From a virus, in IMG/VR virus record IMGVR_UViG_3300020442_001111, positions 1-29,571 of that record: a stretch of DNA of 29,571 bases. One strand, written 5' to 3'. Shown here one piece after another: positions 16,687 through 27,208 of this stretch (position 1 is the first letter of the stretch; each line of letters opens with the position of its first letter). The position numbers and the translations under genes were made by a program. The notes under the pieces were generated by a model. It saw nothing but the letters and a program-made list of their open reading frames with translations, did no database searches and was not told the origin of the DNA.

Positions 16687-18324
16687 CTATGATCCCCCGT
16701 TTGGTGCGCTTGTGTCTGCTCCACCACCTGCATCATTACCATCATTCTGCGGGTGTGTATGAGTATGTAATGTCACATCATTAGATGTAATATTTCCAGC
16801 TGGTCCATCTATACTTAAATCTGGAGCATCTATCTCCATTGATGTTGTTGCATCAATATCAATTTCTGGTGCGTCTGTATCAATTTTACCTTCTGCTTCA
16901 ATAACTTGTTTGTAATCTGTATTTGTTCCGTCTCTGTCTTCAAATCCTTTAGCTTTTATTGGAGCATCAGCATCGCCTATAAACTTAGGCCCTACAAGTA
17001 TAAATTGATTTTTAGCTGTCATAAGAACTTGGTCTTTTGCTGACATTAATTTTGAAACACCGCCTGCTGCTAGAACTAAATCTTGACCAATGGTTGTTCT
17101 ATCATTTTCACCAACACTTGTTATACGATGTTTTTTAATATTTGTACTTAGGAAACTTCCATAGTTTTCTTTTACAGAACCATTAACTGTTGTTCTTTTT
17201 GTTCCGCCAACAGATTTAGTTTGATTAATTGTAATAGTTTCCATATCATCTTTAGAAACACGAGCCTGCCTATTTCCTGCGATTGTATAGTTTTGATCTG
17301 TACCTACCACTTTCATATGGTTACCATTAATTTTCTCGTATTTAGTTCCTGCTACAGACAAATGATAATCGCCATCTACTTCTTGTATATAATTTCCTTT
17401 AACAAGCATATTACAATCTCCTTCGATAGTTACATTACATTTTCCTCTAATCAATACACTATCATTACCTGCAATTATTTGATAATTATTTTTTGTAATA
17501 TTTTCTACTTTACTTCCATCATTATGTATTTCATACCATGTTCCTGCTGGGTGAAATTCATGTATTCTAATATTTTTAGGGGAGTTGTCTCTTTCGTGTA
17601 TGATTCCCGCTCTTGTTTCGTTTACAACATTAAAAGGATAAATTGAAGTTTCATCACCTGTTGCAGGTTCGTATTGCTCTACATATTTAGGTTCATAATC
17701 CTCTGCAGGATCATTGTCTGTAGGATTTGCTCTAGGGTGTGGTTCGTCCCATGTTTTATTTTCGTACGCTGTTCCTGGCCTATTATTACCCGACGCTCCA
17801 AATCCATCTTCAGACATATCAGGAGCTTTAGCTATTAATATTCCTGTTTCTCTATTTGATCTTCTATTTTTTAAGTTGTAATGGTCCTCTGCATTTCTTC
17901 TCGCTAATCTAGAAACATCAGGTTCTCCTTTACCCGCATATCCATCTGGTTTATCTTTTTCTCTGGGCCAGTTACCGTTAGGATCTTCATAACCTACTCC
18001 ATCAAATTGATGATTTTCAGGTGTTTGCCCTGCAATTGATCCCATTATCATTGGTATTTGTCCTTCTTCACCGTCAGCAAAGAAACCAACTACTAATGAA
18101 CCACAAACCAAACTGTGGTTTTCCATAATACCATTTACACCCGCATTACTTACAGGCATAATAGGTGTAGCAAAAGGTAAATCTTTTACAGGCAATTCAT
18201 TGAGATCTGCACTATGGTAACCGTATATTCTTACTTTTACTCTGCCTGTTTCTAATGGATCTACAATATCTTCTACAACGCCTGTCCACCATCTGAAAAC
18301 TGGGCCTTCAATATTTGTTATCAC
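16687..18324 (-). CDS. 5: Baseplate hub/spike protein gp5-like, no lysozyme domain
   Basis: 545 residues starting with GTG in TAGTG, overlapping the gp27-like stop by one base. Residues 8-100 form an OB-fold (FRWWTGVVEDIVDPLETGRV), as in gp5/VgrG. Residues 255-415 are a beta-helix with repeated short strands ending in Gly (VRIRG-like, VTIEGDC, LSVAG, YTIAG). Residues 488-520 form a narrowing Asp/Ile-rich spike stem, and the tip carries H520-T-H-T-H524, like metal-binding His pairs at the apex of other phage spikes. The T4 lysozyme domain between OB-fold and helix is absent: residues 105-250 are a Pro/Asn/Asp-rich linker without the Glu-Asp-Thr lysozyme signature. Role: central membrane-puncturing spike on the hub. 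Confidence 0.88.
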   Translation of the reverse strand: MITNIEGPVFRWWTGVVEDIVDPLETGRVKVRIYGYHSADLNELPVKDLPFATPIMPVSNAGVNGIMENHSLVCGSLVVGFFADGEEGQIPMIMGSIAGQTPENHQFDGVGYEDPNGNWPREKDKPDGYAGKGEPDVSRLARRNAEDHYNLKNRRSNRETGILIAKAPDMSEDGFGASGNNRPGTAYENKTWDEPHPRANPTDNDPAEDYEPKYVEQYEPATGDETSIYPFNVVNETRAGIIHERDNSPKNIRIHEFHPAGTWYEIHNDGSKVENITKNNYQIIAGNDSVLIRGKCNVTIEGDCNMLVKGNYIQEVDGDYHLSVAGTKYEKINGNHMKVVGTDQNYTIAGNRQARVSKDDMETITINQTKSVGGTKRTTVNGSVKENYGSFLSTNIKKHRITSVGENDRTTIGQDLVLAAGGVSKLMSAKDQVLMTAKNQFILVGPKFIGDADAPIKAKGFEDRDGTNTDYKQVIEAEGKIDTDAPEIDIDATTSMEIDAPDLSIDGPAGNITSNDVTLHTHTHPQNDGNDAGGGADTSAPNGGS

Positions 18325-20267: not shown

Positions 20268-21592
20268 TAGAAACCTGCCTGTATATGATCGCCTGTAAGA
20301 ACTTCAAGTTCTGTAAATTGCAATTCCATTGTTATTTCTGTTGGTTTACCGCCCGAATTTTTAAATGTTGTAAAGAAACCATCGGGACCATATGTGACTT
20401 TAACATTAGTTAATGCACAATTTGCTATTCTAGGTAAGTTTTCATTTCTTACTACCTCATTAACAGGTGGTTCTGGGGGCTCTTTATCTCCGTCTTCTTC
20501 TGTGTTGTCATTAGCATCCTCAGCGGGTGGGGGTGGCTTGCCTGGTTCTGTTCTTAAAAATTCAATTACAAATTCTGATGGATATTGTAAAAATACTGTT
20601 TCGGGTGACATATCAGGGTGCATATGAAATTTAAATATTTTAATAATTTGTTCTACTTGTGCCATTTCTTCTCTATTTTTAGGAGAGAAAATATATTGAA
20701 AACTAAATTTTCTAAAACCCATACTTCTAAATAATTGTTCTTTGAATGGGTTGTCTGCTAACCTACTTGTTGCTTGTAATGCTGATGCAAAGTCTGCATT
20801 TACTCCTAAAGCTCTTGGTAAGTTAGCTGCTGCACCAATAACTCCTCTACCTGCTGCACCGCCCGCTTCACCTAGTTCTTCAAGATTAAAATCTAAACCG
20901 CCTGCTACCATTCCTGCCATTCCTAAATCTGTTTCATCATAGTTAGCTTGATATGCAGTTATAATTGATTGAGGAACATATAAGTATATTCCTTGTGTTG
21001 TAAATTCTCCTACATTGTCTTTAAATATATCACTCATAAAAAATGTGGTTACTGCTGCTGCTCCAACAGCTCCTGCGGCAATGTTTGTAGCAGTAAGTTT
21101 CTTATCTAAAAGAGCACTGGCTGTTCCTCCAACTGCTAATGCACCAAGAGTTGCTCCTGCTGCTGCTGTAGATGTTACATTTTCTGCTGAAGCTCTGTTT
21201 CCTTCACTAGCTCCTTCTGCATCTCCACCGAAGTAATCTGCTAAATAATTATCTGCTGCTGCCTTTGCATTTACTCCTGAGCTAGTTGCCCCTGAACCTG
21301 ACAAAGAAATACCTCTATTAGCTTCACCGGTTCCTAATTTCTTTTTAGAAATGATATAAAATCCTACTGCATTTACTTGATTTGCTTGAAATAAATCTTG
21401 TGGGTAAACACTTGTAGTAGCGCCTAAATCTGCTCCTCTTGCAGTTCCTGCTGAAGGTGCTTTTCCGCCAGTAGTGGTACCACTTGTTTGACCTGATTGT
21501 GCGTCTGTTGTTTTAGTGGAGCCACTGCCAGGTTGCCCCGAACCAAAGGATACTCCTAAGGCATCTCCTACTTTGTCTACTAATGAACTCAT
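20267..21592 (-). CDS. 48: Tail tube cap/baseplate protein gp48
   Basis: 441 residues (T4 gp48: 364). The conserved core is FSFQYIFSPKNREEMAQVEQ (297-316), FLQYPSEFVIEF (334-345) and the C-terminal ITMELQFTELEVLTGDHI (420-437), typical of gp48, which sits on the hub and starts the tail tube with gp54. The N-terminal 140 residues are a Gly/Ser/Thr-rich low-complexity region, residues 143-186 an Ala/Gly-rich hydrophobic stretch, and 350-380 a Pro/Glu/Asp insertion; these account for the extra length. First gene of the leftward block, expressed from the divergent late promoter at 21621-21628 with a leader of roughly 20 bases and only a weak TAGG-type binding site. Confidence 0.85.
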   Translation of the reverse strand: MSSLVDKVGDALGVSFGSGQPGSGSTKTTDAQSGQTSGTTTGGKAPSAGTARGADLGATTSVYPQDLFQANQVNAVGFYIISKKKLGTGEANRGISLSGSGATSSGVNAKAAADNYLADYFGGDAEGASEGNRASAENVTSTAAAGATLGALAVGGTASALLDKKLTATNIAAGAVGAAAVTTFFMSDIFKDNVGEFTTQGIYLYVPQSIITAYQANYDETDLGMAGMVAGGLDFNLEELGEAGGAAGRGVIGAAANLPRALGVNADFASALQATSRLADNPFKEQLFRSMGFRKFSFQYIFSPKNREEMAQVEQIIKIFKFHMHPDMSPETVFLQYPSEFVIEFLRTEPGKPPPPAEDANDNTEEDGDKEPPEPPVNEVVRNENLPRIANCALTNVKVTYGPDGFFTTFKNSGGKPTEITMELQFTELEVLTGDHIQAGF

Positions 21593-21596
21593 CTGA

Positions 21597-21604
21597 TATA
21601 AATA
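21597..21604 (+). promoter_or_regulatory. T4-type late promoter for gp4 (rightward)
   Basis: TATAAATA five bases upstream of the gp48 start and on the opposite strand. Predicted transcription start near 21610, 18 bases before the gp4 ATG. It lies inside the leader that the opposing promoter gives to gp48. Confidence 0.72.
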
Positions 21605-21620
21605 CCTATGTTATTTACTT

Positions 21621-21628
21621 TATTTATA
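21621..21628 (-). promoter_or_regulatory. T4-type late promoter for gp48 (leftward)
   Basis: TATAAATA on the minus strand (TATTTATA as written). Its last base on the plus strand is the A of the gp4 ATG. Predicted start near 21615, leaving a leader of about 23 bases for gp48. It faces the rightward promoter 16 bases away. Confidence 0.72.
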
Positions 21629-22074
21629 TGGTCTACGCTAAAGAAATATATAAAGGAAAGTTCATACCTAAAAATTATTCGAAATATTTAGGTGATGTCA
21701 CAAAGATAACGTACCGTTCTAGTTATGAACTGAAGTTTATGAATTGGTGTGATATGAACGAATCCGTATCAGGATGGGTGTCAGAAGAGATTGCTATACC
21801 TTATCGTAACCCTATGGATAATAGAATACACAAATATTTCGTAGATTTTTATGTAGAAGTAACCGATAAAGGTGGTCATAAGAAGTCATATCTAATAGAA
21901 GTTAAACCCAAACGCTTTACAAAGCCCCCAGAAAAAAGAAGAAAAACCAAAAAATATTTACAAGAAGTTGCTAATTATGCTGTAAACGAAGCAAAATGGA
22001 AGGCAGCGGAGTCTTTTTGTAAAGAAAAGAATTTAAATTTTATGCTTGTTACTGAAAAGGAACTTGGCATTTAA
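21628..22074 (+). CDS. 4: Head completion protein gp4
   Basis: 148 residues (T4 gp4: 150). FIPKNYSKYLGDVTKITYRS (residues 12-31) followed by SYELKFMNWCD matches T4 gp4 (WVPKNISKYRGDPKKITYRS), and YLIEVKPKRFTKPP plus YAVNEAKWKAAESFC match FIEIKPKKETQPP and YSVNTDKWKAAQSLA. gp4 finishes the filled head before tail joining; the VDFY...IEVKPK pattern looks like a nuclease fold (Asp ... Glu-x-Lys). The ATG at 21628 gives the family's N-terminus (MVYAKEIYKGKF); an ATG 15 codons further upstream would place the start inside gp48 and upstream of the promoter. No Shine-Dalgarno sequence is seen. Confidence 0.92.
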   Translation: MVYAKEIYKGKFIPKNYSKYLGDVTKITYRSSYELKFMNWCDMNESVSGWVSEEIAIPYRNPMDNRIHKYFVDFYVEVTDKGGHKKSYLIEVKPKRFTKPPEKRRKTKKYLQEVANYAVNEAKWKAAESFCKEKNLNFMLVTEKELGI

Positions 22075-22089: not shown

Positions 22090-22707
22090 ATGGCGACCAA
22101 TGAATTTAGACAAATTAGACTAGAAGCTGGTGATGTAGATCGCTCTGACCGTTGGTATATAAACGCAGTTAGAGAGTTTGCAAAGGGTGTAGATAATCCT
22201 ATGTCTGTTTTTAGTTCTGATTTAGGAAAATTTGAGACAAGTGTTGATACAGGAAATATGATGATGTTTACTTATGACGCTAAACACGCAGAAACATTAC
22301 CATATTACGATAAGTTTCCTCTATCAATTATTATTGAACCACTTCCTAATATAGGTGGTTTTAGTGGTATTAACTTACATTATTTACCGCCTTTATTTAG
22401 AGCAGAAGTTTTAGGGGCGTTGAGAGAAACCACAGAAAAACTTACAGACGAAAAAGCACAATTAAGATCTAGTTGGGAGGTTGTAAAAAGATTCTCACAA
22501 TATCCACAAATTAAGGGTGCTGTTAAAAAATATATTTTTGGTCAAGTAACAAGTAGATTTTACAAAGTAAATCCTATACATTGGAGATCGGCAGTATTTT
22601 TACCGACACAACAATTTACAGGAGCAACAGACAGAACAGTTTATAGAAGAACAATGTTAAAAGAAGAAAGAAAGAAAAAACCTAGTATGGGTATGGGGAG
22701 CGTATAA
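22090..22707 (+). CDS. Conserved virion protein of unknown role (possible gp2-like)
   Basis: 205 residues, no membrane segment, basic C-terminus (KEERKKKPSMGMGS). The central stretch LPYYDKFPLSIIIEPLP followed by GGFSGINLHYLPPLFRAEVL is a motif I recognise from structural proteins of marine and other T4-like phages, without a firm function. In T4, gene 2 (protein that protects packaged DNA ends) is next to gene 4, so a gp2-like or neck/tail-completion role is possible from position only. Expressed from its own late promoter 5 bases before the ATG; the stop codon overlaps the next start (TAATG), so it is coupled with the gp54-like gene. Confidence 0.75.
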   Translation: MATNEFRQIRLEAGDVDRSDRWYINAVREFAKGVDNPMSVFSSDLGKFETSVDTGNMMMFTYDAKHAETLPYYDKFPLSIIIEPLPNIGGFSGINLHYLPPLFRAEVLGALRETTEKLTDEKAQLRSSWEVVKRFSQYPQIKGAVKKYIFGQVTSRFYKVNPIHWRSAVFLPTQQFTGATDRTVYRRTMLKEERKKKPSMGMGSV

Positions 22708-23498
22708 TGGGCTGGTTAGACTTTAAAAAACCATCAGTTAAGGTAGGCGGAGAAGAAATAGAAGGACCAGTTACCCAATTAGGTAATCAACGTTGGGACG
22801 CTACTTCGTTTATGTCAGAAATAAGACGTAGACAATTAGCACGTTCAGAGAGATTTGAGGTACAAGTTTCTTTCCCACCCGCTTTACAAGATAAAGAAAC
22901 AATAGGTGACTTCTCAATATTTTGTGAAGAAGTCCAAATACCTGGTATGGTATTAACAAATAAAGAATTTAATGTAGGACCCTGGACACATTATAGAAAC
23001 AACAATATAGGGTTCTTAGGAAACGAAATAAATTTAACTTTTTATTGTGATGTAGATTGGAGACTTAGACATCATTTTGAAAGATGGATGTCTCATTGTG
23101 TAGACACTACATCAAAACAAGTTGAATTCCCAGCAGACACATGGGGTAGAATTGTAATTGCTTCTTTAGATATGAAGGACCGTTACAGAAAAGCTTGGGT
23201 GTTACATGAAGTCACACCTAAAGTTCTTAACCTTATACCTCTTTCAATGGGTAACTCAGGTATAGCGAGAGCTACATTGATTGTATCTGCTACTTACTGG
23301 GAGTCTACTGCTATTAATGTTGGTATAGGTTCAAGTGACCCCTCGAACTTTGATAGTAGTATGAACAAAGCAGAAGAAAATTCTACAAGAACAGCAGTAA
23401 GAGATTGGGTGTTAGACTTGTTTAGAGGCGATAGCGAGAAAAAGGAAAACGAGGAACAGAATCAAGATCCAGAATTACAAAATGGATCAGGTGGCTAG
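22707..23498 (+). CDS. 54: gp54-like baseplate-tail tube initiator
   Basis: 263 residues (T4 gp54: 320). Residues 38-202 fit the tail-tube fold shared by gp19, gp48 and gp54: RFEVQVSFPP, EEVQIPGMVLTNKEFNVGPW, EINLTFYCDVDWRLRHHFER and WMSHCVD, then a strand ATLIVSATYWES. The 'DVDWRLRHHFERWM' segment parallels T4 gp54 'DSEACNYRAMQDWV'. The acidic, Glu/Asn/Gln-rich tail (210-263) is likely disordered. gp54 sits on gp48 to nucleate the tube. The gp54 identity is favoured over the tube protein gp19 by proximity to gp48, gp26 and the tape measure, but gp19 or another tube-fold protein cannot be ruled out. Confidence 0.68.
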   Translation: MGWLDFKKPSVKVGGEEIEGPVTQLGNQRWDATSFMSEIRRRQLARSERFEVQVSFPPALQDKETIGDFSIFCEEVQIPGMVLTNKEFNVGPWTHYRNNNIGFLGNEINLTFYCDVDWRLRHHFERWMSHCVDTTSKQVEFPADTWGRIVIASLDMKDRYRKAWVLHEVTPKVLNLIPLSMGNSGIARATLIVSATYWESTAINVGIGSSDPSNFDSSMNKAEENSTRTAVRDWVLDLFRGDSEKKENEEQNQDPELQNGSGG

Positions 23499-23518: not shown

Positions 23519-24202
23519 ATGGCATTACCAAAAATTGATACGCCAACATTCGAACTAGAAGTACCGTCAACAAAAGAAAGACATACTTTTAGGCCGTGGT
23601 TGGTAAAGGAAGAGAAAGTTCTCATGTTAGCAAATGAGGGCGGACAATTCGAAGACATGGTACAAGCGTGTAAAACGGTTGTACAAAACTGTTCATTTGG
23701 AAAAGTTGATGCAGGCAAAATTACAATGTTTGATTTACAACATTTGTTCATACGTTGTAAGGAAAAGTCTGTAACAGGTACACAGCAGTTCACTTTAATT
23801 TGTGGAAACTGTGAACATAAAATTCCATATGAAATGAAACTAGAAGAGCTTGCCGTAAATGGCGAAATTAAAAAAGGTAGATTGGATTTAGATGATGGTA
23901 TCGTATTACAATTAAAATACCCTACTGTCAATGATACTTTAAATTCTACAAATAATACATTTGATTATATTAAAGCGTGTTTAGCTTCTGTAACAGTAGG
24001 AGAAGAAACTATTACAGTAGAAGACGAAACACCTGAAGAAATTGAAAATTTTATAGATAGTCTACCCGTAAAAGCATATAATGAAATGTTAGAATATTTC
24101 GATAGTATGCCAATGATGTCACATGAGGTTAATTATAAATGTCCTGAATGTGATACTGAGAATTCTATTAACATTAATGGAGCAGAACATTTTTTCGGAT
24201 GA
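23519..24202 (+). CDS. 26: gp26-type baseplate hub/tail assembly protein with zinc ribbon
   Basis: 227 residues (T4 gp26: 208). It has the T4 baseplate (gp26) family layout: N-terminal beta strand (FELEVPSTKERHTFRPW), helix EEKVLMLANEGGQFEDMVQA, then a Cys pair CGNC (95, 98) and a second pair CPEC (208, 211), which together look like a zinc ribbon with a long helical insert. Strong AGGAG ribosome binding site 6 bases before the ATG. Its 3' end contains a slippery heptamer and overlaps the next gene by ATGA. Position directly before a small helical gene and the tape measure equals that of tail-assembly chaperones in other tailed phages; a chaperone role for the tape measure is therefore proposed here. 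Confidence 0.75.
   Translation: MALPKIDTPTFELEVPSTKERHTFRPWLVKEEKVLMLANEGGQFEDMVQACKTVVQNCSFGKVDAGKITMFDLQHLFIRCKEKSVTGTQQFTLICGNCEHKIPYEMKLEELAVNGEIKKGRLDLDDGIVLQLKYPTVNDTLNSTNNTFDYIKACLASVTVGEETITVEDETPEEIENFIDSLPVKAYNEMLEYFDSMPMMSHEVNYKCPECDTENSININGAEHFFG
24190..24196 (+). promoter_or_regulatory. Candidate -1 ribosomal frameshift site (T TTT TTC)
   Basis: In the gp26-type frame the sequence reads CAT TTT TTC GGA TGA, so T TTT TTC fits X XXY YYZ with the stop codon one codon further on. A -1 shift leads into CGG ATG ACT, exactly the frame of the 63-residue gene. The GGAG at 24179-24182, about 11 bases before the A-site codon, could act as a stimulator. No convincing 3' stem is visible; only a 4-bp TTCT/AGAA pairing. 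Confidence 0.55.
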
Positions 24203-24390
24203 CTCTTTCTCAGGAGAATCTTGAAAACTATTATAAAACAAATTTCTTGTTAATGCAGGAACACAAATATAGTTTAACAGAGTTGGAGAATATGATGCCT
24301 TGGGAAAGAGAAGTTTATATAACATATTTGGTAGAGCACTTAAATAAAAAGGCCGAAAGGGCACAAACGAGAGCAAAGCAACAGGTTTAA
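24199..24390 (+). CDS. Small helical partner of gp26-type protein (GT-like/gp51-like)
   Basis: 63 residues if started at the ATG of the ATGA overlap with the previous gene. Mostly helical, with the motif MMPWEREVYITYLVEHLNKK (33-52) that is typical of small ORFs preceding tape measures (compare the T domain of lambda GT). It lies in the -1 frame relative to the gp26-type gene, directly after a slippery heptamer, so it may be produced as the tail of a 290-residue fusion (226 shared residues, Arg, then these 63) as well as, or instead of, a free protein. The best SD-like sequence (GGAG) is 16 bases from this ATG, too far to be ideal. T4 gp51 has a comparable baseplate hub assembly role; homology is not shown. 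Confidence 0.7.
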   Translation: MTLSQENLENYYKTNFLLMQEHKYSLTELENMMPWEREVYITYLVEHLNKKAERAQTRAKQQV

Positions 24391-24395
24391 AATAA

Positions 24396-26765
24396 ATGGA
24401 CGAGAAAGATTTAAAGAAAGTTATTGATGAAGCAACAGATAACGAAGATCTGAAAAAACTTCATGCAGATACCAAAGAAGATCTAGGTAATTTTGGCGAC
24501 GAAATTAAAGAAAGAATATCAACTATAGAAAGTCACGCTGCAACCAATAAGGTAATGAATCTTGCTCAGGTTGCAGACGTAGTTCAACGTCGTGAAGGTG
24601 ATAAAGTTCTAAGAGGTATCGCAGACAGAACTGAAGAAGGAATAAGAGCTGAGGCATCACATAACAAAGGCGCAAAATCCTCTCGTAAAAGAATAGAAGC
24701 TAGTTTAGATAGTTTACATAAAAAAGTAGATACCGGTGTAGGAATGGGAGGCGGATCTGGGGGTGGTGGAGAAGGTCCTAGAATCCGTAATATAGGAGCT
24801 GTGTTAGGTAATTTAATGCCTACAAAAATTAGTTCCGATCAAATTAAAGGTGGTGCAGGTACTAACTTAAAATTAATGGCACAGGCAGATTCTAGTGTTT
24901 TAGAACAAGCAATGTTAAAGGATTCTGAAGGTGAAGGTGAGTTAGGTAAAAGAATAAGTAAACTTTTAGAAGCCACAAGAAAACAACAAAAGACAGGAGA
25001 TGCTACTGAAGCAAAAGAAGAACTAGCAAAACTAACAGCCTACCAACAAAGAACTGGTATTGATACTGGATTAGATTTAGAAGCTTTACAAAAAGGTACA
25101 CAAAAACAAGGAATGTTTTCTAAGCAAAACATAAAAGAAAAATTAGGTGTATCACAAGGTGACGATTTAAGTGTTTCAGGTTTTGTAGAACAAAAGAGCC
25201 AAAATTTATTAGACAGTATAGATAAGTTTAAAGAAAAACTTAAAGATCCTTTTGGTGGTCAAAGTAGAGCAAACGAAAAAGAATTTCAAGGTATGGTTGG
25301 CACAGCAGTTGCCCAACAAGATCAAAAATCTGTTAGTGAGACTTTAGAAAAATTCTTTAAAGGAGAAGATTTCCAAAAACGTGATCCTGATAAAATAGAT
25401 CCTAGAAAAGCGTTAGTAAGTAGTAGAACAGGACAAGATACAGAAACAGTACAAGAGAAACAATTAGAAGTTCTAGAAGAAATAAGAGATATACTTTTAG
25501 ATATGCAAGGTGGTATGGACGAAGGTGGTGGTATGCCATTGGTACCAAGAGGTGGTCCAACTAGAACTAAAACACCAAGAACTAAAACACCAAGAACTAA
25601 AACTCCGGGACCAAGAACTAAAGCACCTAACGTAAAACCATCAGGACCTAAAGGACCTAAAGTACCTAAAGGAGGATTTACAAGTCCCGCTCAGGCACCT
25701 AAGGGAGTTGATTTAGTAAAATCTAAGAGTGGTAAGTTGTTCCCAGCTAATAGTCCTCAAGGGCAAATGATTCAAAACATGACTAAAAATGCCGATGTAG
25801 TCGACGATGTCGCTAAGGCAGCACCTAAACCTAGTGCAACAGGAAAAGTAGTACGAGGAGCGGCTAAAGGACTAGGTGTTCTTGGTGTAGCAGTAGATGC
25901 AGGTTTTAGAATTAGTGATGATATGGCTCAAAGAGATCTATTAGAAAGAGCACAAGCAGGAGACGAAACTGCCACAGATCAAAGAACAGGAGACATTTAT
26001 ACTGAAGAAAGCGCAGATGCTGATAGAGTAGAAAATGTATCTGGTTTTGCAGGAGGACTTGCAGGAGCGGCAGCAGGTGGTGCAGCAGGTGCCAAGGGAG
26101 GAGCAGCATTGGGTGCTGCTATTGGTAGTATTATACCAGGTGCAGGCACAGTAGCGGGTGCAGCTGTTGGTGGTTTTATTGGTGGTGTTGGTGGTAGTGT
26201 AATGGGTTACTTTGCTGGTTCAGCAGCGGGTCAGGAAGCAGGTGATGCTCTTACAACAAACGATGCAGAAAAAGAAATTGAAAAACTAGAATCAGATGGT
26301 GCTTTTGAAAAAGTTATTTTTGGTAACTCTACAATTAATAGAGAGAAAATGAAGGAAGTGGGCACCGTAAAAAATATTACATCACTACTATCACAAGAAG
26401 GCGATGATTTATCAGAAGATGATATTGCATTCCTAACAGACTTAAAAGATCAAAAAGCAAATACAGCGGCAACAATGGAACAAGTTCAATCTAGTACAGC
26501 AGGAACAGTTGGTATGACTACAGATCCTATTACAGGACAAGCTGTTGCTGAAACAAATCCTACAGCAGATGCAGTAGCTAATATGACTGATTTAGCAGAA
26601 GGTTTAGACTTTGCTGCAATGCAACCAGTTATTAATATTGCTAATAATAGTGTTGCAGGTGGTCAAGGCGGACAAGATGCTATTGCTGCTGTAATGAAAG
26701 CTACATCTAGATTCCCACTAGATGATAACATGACAAAAGTTCTAAGTAATTATAAAATCGTTTAG
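24396..26765 (+). CDS. Tape measure protein candidate (gp29-like)
   Basis: 789 residues (T4 gp29: 590). Residues 1-115 and 170-370 are charged, Lys/Glu/Gln-rich helices with coiled-coil character. A Gly-rich break lies at 115-127. Residues 385-440 are Pro/Lys/Arg/Thr-rich with three KTPR-type repeats, and 549-618 form an Ala/Gly zipper (GAAAGGAAGAKGGAALGAAI and on), the hydrophobic section found in many tape measures and thought to interact with the host membrane after ejection. The position right after the chaperone-like pair is that of a tape measure. The ATG lies 5 bases after the previous stop with no clear SD. Overlaps the convergent lysozyme gene by 4 bases. Sequence similarity to gp29 is not apparent, so the symbol is left empty. 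Confidence 0.78.
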   Translation: MDEKDLKKVIDEATDNEDLKKLHADTKEDLGNFGDEIKERISTIESHAATNKVMNLAQVADVVQRREGDKVLRGIADRTEEGIRAEASHNKGAKSSRKRIEASLDSLHKKVDTGVGMGGGSGGGGEGPRIRNIGAVLGNLMPTKISSDQIKGGAGTNLKLMAQADSSVLEQAMLKDSEGEGELGKRISKLLEATRKQQKTGDATEAKEELAKLTAYQQRTGIDTGLDLEALQKGTQKQGMFSKQNIKEKLGVSQGDDLSVSGFVEQKSQNLLDSIDKFKEKLKDPFGGQSRANEKEFQGMVGTAVAQQDQKSVSETLEKFFKGEDFQKRDPDKIDPRKALVSSRTGQDTETVQEKQLEVLEEIRDILLDMQGGMDEGGGMPLVPRGGPTRTKTPRTKTPRTKTPGPRTKAPNVKPSGPKGPKVPKGGFTSPAQAPKGVDLVKSKSGKLFPANSPQGQMIQNMTKNADVVDDVAKAAPKPSATGKVVRGAAKGLGVLGVAVDAGFRISDDMAQRDLLERAQAGDETATDQRTGDIYTEESADADRVENVSGFAGGLAGAAAGGAAGAKGGAALGAAIGSIIPGAGTVAGAAVGGFIGGVGGSVMGYFAGSAAGQEAGDALTTNDAEKEIEKLESDGAFEKVIFGNSTINREKMKEVGTVKNITSLLSQEGDDLSEDDIAFLTDLKDQKANTAATMEQVQSSTAGTVGMTTDPITGQAVAETNPTADAVANMTDLAEGLDFAAMQPVINIANNSVAGGQGGQDAIAAVMKATSRFPLDDNMTKVLSNYKIV
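25563..25606 (+). repeat. Three tandem 15-base repeats encoding PRTKT
   Basis: The unit AGAACTAAAACACCA occurs three times in tandem (last copy with ACTCC), giving RTKTPRTKTPRTKTP in the tape-measure candidate. Near-identical DNA indicates recent slippage or duplication. Confidence 0.85.
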
Positions 26766-26772
26766 ACGTTTT
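26754..26772. terminator. Possible bidirectional terminator at convergent stop codons
   Basis: AAAA-T-CGT / TTAG / ACG-TTTT: a 7-bp stem with a one-base bulge and a TTAG loop. The loop contains both stop codons (TAG of the rightward tape measure, TAA of the leftward lysozyme). A and T runs flank it on both strands, but only three pairs are strong, so termination would be weak. Confidence 0.35.
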
Positions 26773-27208
26773 CTAATCTTACCATTAATCTTTCAGCACG
26801 GTTAGTAACTTGGTTATACCAACGACTATCTCTTCCTTCTATTGCTGCAGTTTTCCAATCACCTTCTAGTATTGCTGCGTGCATTTTCTTAAATTTAGAT
26901 AGTCTAGTTCTACCCATGTTGAACATCATATTAACTAGGATTTGTTGGACTTCATCTGGTAAATTTGTAAACACTCCTTCTTCATAAAGTAGTTCACATT
27001 CATTTATTGCTGTATCCAGATCTTTCTCGAAACAATCCTTAACTCTCTCTTCTGAAACTGGTGTGCCGACTTCTTGTCCTTGCTCAGGATCGGATTCGGT
27101 AACCAAGTGTCCGACTCCAAATGTCGGGTAGCCCAGGTGGTCTTTGTAAATTTCATATACTACACCCTCGTCTATTTTTAGTTGTTCAAATACTGCTTCT
27201 CTATTCAT
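26762..27208 (-). CDS. e: T4-lysozyme-like muramidase (endolysin)
   Basis: 148 residues (T4 lysozyme: 164), glycoside hydrolase family 24. The catalytic trio is in place: E14 in KIDEG, D23 in IYKDHLG and T29 in YPTFGVGH, equal to T4 E11, D20 and T26. NMMFNMGRTRLSKFKKM and SRWYNQVTNRAERLM match T4 NMVFQMGETGVAGFTNS and SRWYNQTPNRAKRVI. It cleaves peptidoglycan glycan strands. There is no signal peptide, so a holin from elsewhere or virion delivery is needed. It could be the endolysin (T4 gene e) or a replacement for the lysozyme domain missing from gp5. The start overlaps the oxygenase gene by 8 bases, with a GAAGG ribosome binding site, so both are one late operon. Confidence 0.92.
   Translation of the reverse strand: MNREAVFEQLKIDEGVVYEIYKDHLGYPTFGVGHLVTESDPEQGQEVGTPVSEERVKDCFEKDLDTAINECELLYEEGVFTNLPDEVQQILVNMMFNMGRTRLSKFKKMHAAILEGDWKTAAIEGRDSRWYNQVTNRAERLMVRLENV

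Follow-up and report, generated by a model that had tools for sequence, protein, structure and literature searches.

When a gp51-like reading frame begins at the very end of a gp26-type gene, in the -1 frame, is it translated as a separate protein or as an extension of gp26? This question is raised by a marine T4-like virus record of 29,571 nucleotides (IMGVR_UViG_3300020442_001111), referred to here in its entirety as the window, which carries T4-like tail and baseplate genes over its 29.6 kb and is probably a fragment. A sequence-only reading of the window had proposed a programmed -1 frameshift of the G/GT type, with re-initiation as an alternative.

The gp26-gp51 junction and its setting

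The gp26-type ORF occupies positions 23,519 to 24,202 on the plus strand, encodes 227 residues, and was identified by PF12322 (T4_baseplate, E=1e-49) and phrog_150. Direct reading of its 3' end gives GAA CAT TTT TTC GGA TGA. The heptamer T TTT TTC (24,190–24,196) lies in the X XXY YYZ phase of the gp26 frame, with TTT (24,191–24,193) as the P-site codon and TTC (24,194–24,196) as the A-site codon, and the 0-frame stop TGA (24,200–24,202) follows one codon later. The -1 frame is free of stops from 24,178 and contains, also on the plus strand, a 63-residue ORF (24,199–24,390) matching phrog_634, ‘baseplate hub assembly catalyst’ (E=3e-24). Its ATG (24,199–24,201) overlaps the gp26 stop as ATGA. 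A frameshift at the heptamer would produce a fusion of 290 residues, reading EHFF-RMTLSQENLENYYK across the junction, and HFFR-MTLSQENLENYYK is the predicted junction peptide. A Shine-Dalgarno (SD)-like GGAG (24,179–24,182), a candidate upstream stimulator, is situated 11 nt before the A-site codon. The bases, heptamer phase, stop position, -1 ORF and fusion length of about 290 residues given by the sequence-only reading were all confirmed, as was its placement of GGAG about 11 bases before the A-site codon.

Counted simply as a string, TTTTTTC shows no excess over the whole window (8 found, 13.3 expected). No window gene other than gp26 has an in-phase XXXYYYZ sequence within its final few codons. 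One other gene, at 21,583–22,074, has near-end heptamers, 10–11 codons ahead of its stop.

The pair sits between a gene for a tail tube-type protein (22,707–23,498, plus strand; phrog_45 tail tube, E=5e-22) and a plus-strand ORF of 789 residues (24,396–26,765), the next one downstream, which had been proposed as the tape-measure gene. We retain this ORF as a tape-measure candidate on the basis of its position, a match to phrog_1047 (tail-associated lysin), and the annotation ‘tail tape measure protein’ of the gene one or two ORFs past gp51 in phages Cr30 and RHph_I1_18. No extra small ORFs lie between gp51 and this large gene in the window; one or two, of about 40–145 residues, do so in loci L011, L012, L017, L019, L020, L025, L027 and L196. 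Elsewhere in the window, a gp5-like hub/tail-lysozyme protein (16,687–18,324) seems to be missing its lysozyme part, and a separate lysozyme-like ORF of 148 residues, matching the lysozyme part of phrog_430, is encoded on the opposite strand beyond the tape-measure candidate (26,762–27,208).

The AlphaFold2 model of gp26 has a pLDDT of 94, and the gp51-like ORF is modelled as three helices with a pLDDT of 88. A Foldseek search of the gp26 model against the PDB gave no match at E≤0.001 and retrieved no known tail-chaperone structure, nor did the sequence profile have a credible match in the PDB. Among viral folds the gp26 model matched baseplate hub proteins or subunits only. The chaperone role that we propose for this TAC-N-like protein thus derives from its position, from the layout of the locus and from T4 genetics rather than from its fold. 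T4 gp26 and gp51 are both listed as hub assembly chaperones (PMC3004832).

Conservation of the heptamer and absence of start codons

Relatives were collected as 10 loci found by searching viral contigs for gp26, 20 named phages, and 160 loci from gp51 and gp26 profile searches; the tests covered 191 loci and, beyond these, 7 additional named phages. The 191 loci were searched with HMMs over all six-frame ORFs, without regard to frame, and clustering of gp26 at 85% identity left 161 representatives. Because these share descent and are treated as independent, the counts below are descriptive rather than true probabilities, and nominal probabilities overstate the evidence.

Both genes were detected in 186 of the 191 loci, and in all 186 the gp51 frame was -1 relative to gp26, overlapping, and open through the heptamer. 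The remaining five include a T4-type phage with gp51 on the other strand (L022), the Vibrio phage VP-1 (L024), and Bhz51 (L018), where the heptamer is present and gp51 is too divergent for the profile. Among the representatives, 160 of 161 carried an in-phase T TTT TTN; Vibrio phage YC was the one that did not. The seventh base was C in 115, T in 28, A in 14 and G in 2, to which one locus with overlapping TTTTTTA/TTTAAAC is added; the gp51 profile, from which half of the sampling derives, also takes in the residue directly after the heptamer and may favour C at the seventh base, not the six Ts. That additional locus (L025, Rhizobium phage RHph_I1_18) reads T TTT TTA AAC, two overlapping slippery heptamers placed 8–9 codons before the gp26 stop. 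The heptamer was likewise present in six of the additional named phages, from Nitratidesulfovibrio, Aeromonas, Rhizobium and Pseudoalteromonas hosts, and, as in VP-1, was missing from the seventh, Vibrio phage BX-1. The heptamer-less exceptions are Vibrio Ackermannviridae and a true T4-like phage of the Tevenvirinae. Homologues with the genes in other phases, or with no slippery site, had been named as what would speak against frameshifting, and this survey favours it.

The distance from the heptamer to the 0-frame stop ranged from 0 to 9 codons among representatives, and therefore it is the heptamer that is conserved and not an overlap with the stop. In Mosig the distance is 8 codons and the -1 frame still keeps the family sequence RIALSHDSLENFF; the tryptic peptide right after the FFR junction of its predicted fusion would be IALSHDSLENFFK.

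In the three Ackermannviridae (VP-1, YC and BX-1; L024, L026 and L198), gp51 keeps the -1 phase relative to gp26, the two genes overlap in a TAATG, and T TTT TTN is missing. Their junctions read CAC GTT TTT CGC TAA TG in VP-1 and BX-1 and GCT TTC ATG TAA TG in YC. These phages have possibly switched to re-initiation or to another slippery site.

Such overlaps bring us to translational coupling, in which ribosomes would stop at the TGA and start again on the ATG that overlaps it, yielding a separate 63-residue gp51 with no frameshift. ATGA is present in the window and in its clade (L001–L005), where it arises because the stop is TGA preceded by A, and ATG or TAATG overlaps also occur in Cr30, phiM7, phiM9, EniLVp02 and QD01, besides the three Ackermannviridae. 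However, two close relatives have ATA or CTA instead of ATG at the same spot, reading ATAA (L006, 59% identical) and CTAA (L007, 52% identical). Within -7 to +14 of the gp26 stop, an ATG was found in 45 of the 160 heptamer-bearing representatives and was absent in 115. Pelagibacter phage Mosig and cyanophage S-RIM12 are among the isolates whose junction has no ATG for gp51. Between the heptamer and the conserved gp51 core, 104 of the 160 had no ATG, and 65 had none of ATG, GTG and TTG, leaving no usable start. Re-initiation therefore cannot be the general mechanism. Coupling would also leave unexplained the invariant heptamer, the wobble constraint described below and the -1 phase in 186 loci, and the 16 nt from GGAG to the ATG are far for an SD sequence serving initiation. 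We consider it improbable that coupling accounts for the locus. As for the re-initiation alternative in the sequence-only reading, its ATGA overlap stands and could still permit some re-initiation, supplying additional free gp51 in the window clade; as a general account it fails on the frequent absence of starts.

The missing start codons also explain how gp51 appears in public records. It is short in P-HM2 (30 residues), starts well inside the domain in Melnitz, Mosig and C48C1, and is absent from the records of Ah1 and Aeh1; many public records of cyanophages, pelagiphages and Aeromonas phages have it truncated or unannotated. No joined gp26-gp51 CDS was present in the annotated regions of the public phage records examined.

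Selection on the RNA around the heptamer

Conservation of the nucleotides at the junction exceeds what the protein demands. Away from the junction, an in-phase T TTT TTN was seen at 17 of the 36,575 codon positions in these genes and encoded 6 of the 138 Phe-Phe pairs. The codon preceding TTT ended in T in 160 of 160 representatives (the codon usage of these genes predicts 100±6), even though the residue that it encodes varies among Ser, Asp, Asn, Ala, His and Gly. The first Phe was TTT in all 160, against 73% elsewhere. The wobble bases thus show selection acting on the RNA.

We also examined the stretch upstream. The family mean for the duplex between the SD-like stretch and the anti-SD sequence was -6.0 kcal/mol, compared with -1.9 kcal/mol for control stretches and -4.6 kcal/mol for synonymous re-codings, and the Glu codon in this stretch was GAG in 65 of 92 cases, against 26% elsewhere. 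For the GGAG of the window the value was -5.6 kcal/mol, compared with -3.6±2.1 kcal/mol for synonymous versions. The signal is clear for the family and modest for the window. Downstream, folding of 60 nt from +10 was stronger than in dinucleotide shuffles (mean z of -1.77, with the peak at +10), and it faded to -0.07 by +70 and stood at -0.11 at -60. The SD-like stretch and, on average, the downstream folding point to selection on the RNA. In the window itself the downstream structure is weak; a predicted hairpin (TCAGGA/TCTTGA; 24,210–24,224, plus strand) has a z of about -0.9 and is not significant.

We considered the possibility of a shared stem-loop of 8 bp, 5 nt past the heptamer. Perfect stems of this geometry were in slight excess across the 160 representatives, pairing otherwise did not rise above permuted pairing and no single stem is common to the family, so that hairpins are regarded as lineage-specific. 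In loci L064 and L087 the sequence at this spacing can pair perfectly over 8 bp, and L054 has the same hairpin with compensating changes; in all three it is encoded by a near-palindromic -1-frame motif, LSHES(L).

Every heptamer-bearing junction has a run of at least six Ts on which, in principle, RNA polymerase could stutter, so that a subpopulation of mRNAs in the shifted frame would encode the fusion. Six Ts are, however, short for polymerase slippage. TTT TTT after a base other than T would suit the polymerase equally well, yet the preceding T is kept in 28 of the 28 cases that have a seventh T, and the conserved SD-like element, which would act on the translating ribosome, would have no role. 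Transcriptional slippage is accordingly judged very improbable. Least credible of all is that the heptamer is a by-product of a conserved Phe-Phe in an AT-rich gene followed by an unrelated gp51, for although Phe-Phe at the gp26 C-terminus is kept even in T4-type gp26, there as TTC TTT, this reading is contradicted by the counts above for other Phe-Phe pairs, for the invariable NNT codon and for gp51 lacking a start, and by T4-type gp51, which holds both parts in one ORF.

Relation to T4 gp51 and proposed mechanism

That frameshifting would connect this layout with the separate gp26 and gp51 genes of T4 had been suggested from the sequence, and profile comparisons bore this out. T4-type gp26 is homologous end to end to our gp26 profile (hhalign E of 5e-22). 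In T4-type gp51 the N-terminus aligns to the gp26 profile (E of 3.7e-8) and the C-terminus to the gp51 profile (E of 6e-4). T4-type gp51 covers positions 13–281 of the 282 in phrog_150, and the predicted fusion of the window covers 5–278 in one stretch, scoring 217 bits compared with 182 for gp26 alone. As both span the same profile, T4 gp51 represents the fusion as a stand-alone protein, its natural single-gene counterpart. T4-type phages have no heptamer and give the long form a gene of its own, which in the copy that we examined lies on the opposite strand. Outside T4-type gp51, no natural in-frame gp26-gp51 fusion was found among the 186 loci.

The locus shares with lambda G/GT, and with P2 E/E', Mu and other long-tailed phages, two overlapping ORFs in a -1 relation, with tail tube-type genes on their upstream side and the tape-measure gene directly downstream. 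Also shared with lambda G/GT are a slippery heptamer where the first ORF ends and two isoforms, one short and one long, which are predicted here. Lambda-type chaperones have no detectable sequence or solved-structure similarity to the window pair, and the lambda slippery site is G GGA AAG, in contrast to the almost invariant T TTT TTN of the gp26 family. As in dnaX, the A-site codon is preceded at about 11 nt by an SD-like sequence, which in this family is under synonymous selection; the dnaX heptamer is A AAA AAG rather than a T-run, and the downstream hairpin of the gp26 family differs in being lineage-specific.

Programmed -1 ribosomal frameshifting of the lambda G/GT kind, yielding a short and a long isoform of a tail-assembly chaperone, is by a wide measure the best explanation of these results, and we hold it with high confidence. 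Ribosomes probably slip by -1 at the six Ts in the window and in nearly all examined T4-like relatives outside T4's group. We infer slippage itself, its rate and the chaperone role as follows. Ribosomes translating gp26 would arrive at T TTT TTC, where in a minority of passages both tRNAs would re-pair one base upstream, on TTT TTT. The SD-like sequence about 11 nt upstream would act as a dnaX-type stimulator by pairing with 16S rRNA in the ribosome as it translates, with help from a downstream hairpin in some lineages. Ribosomes that do not shift would stop one codon later and give an abundant short protein, and those that shift would produce the gp26-gp51 fusion. By analogy with lambda gpG/gpGT, the two would be isoforms of a chaperone coating the tape-measure protein and bringing in the tail tube subunits.

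This class of mechanism is already known, and what is added here is the test of its breadth, the start-codon evidence and the SD signal. A 2016 review described the tail-chaperone frameshift as conserved in long-tailed phages except T4 (PMC5009743). According to papers citing Vladimirov et al. 2022, that study reported short and long chaperones in T4-like phages, some encoded as a short gene plus a separate fusion gene (PMC10885494), and poly-T slippery sequences in T4-like TAC-N genes (PMC12846349). Judging from these citing papers, it probably already contained frameshifting in T4-like chaperone genes. In the open literature we found no paper on gp26/gp51 frameshifting in cyanophages or pelagiphages.

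Taken further, we think it likely that, outside T4's group, gp51 exists solely as the frameshift-encoded tail of gp26, kept by the near-invariant T TTT TTN and a co-evolved SD stimulator; that the free-standing gp51 of T4 is derived, a duplicated, pre-fused gene that replaced the frameshift; and that the Ackermannviridae moved to re-initiation or another site. If so, the annotation of gp51 would be corrected in hundreds of genomes. In the present comparison, the site is kept by relatives of T4 from marine, soil and animal-associated hosts, and T4 gp51 matches the predicted frameshift product made into a stand-alone gene.
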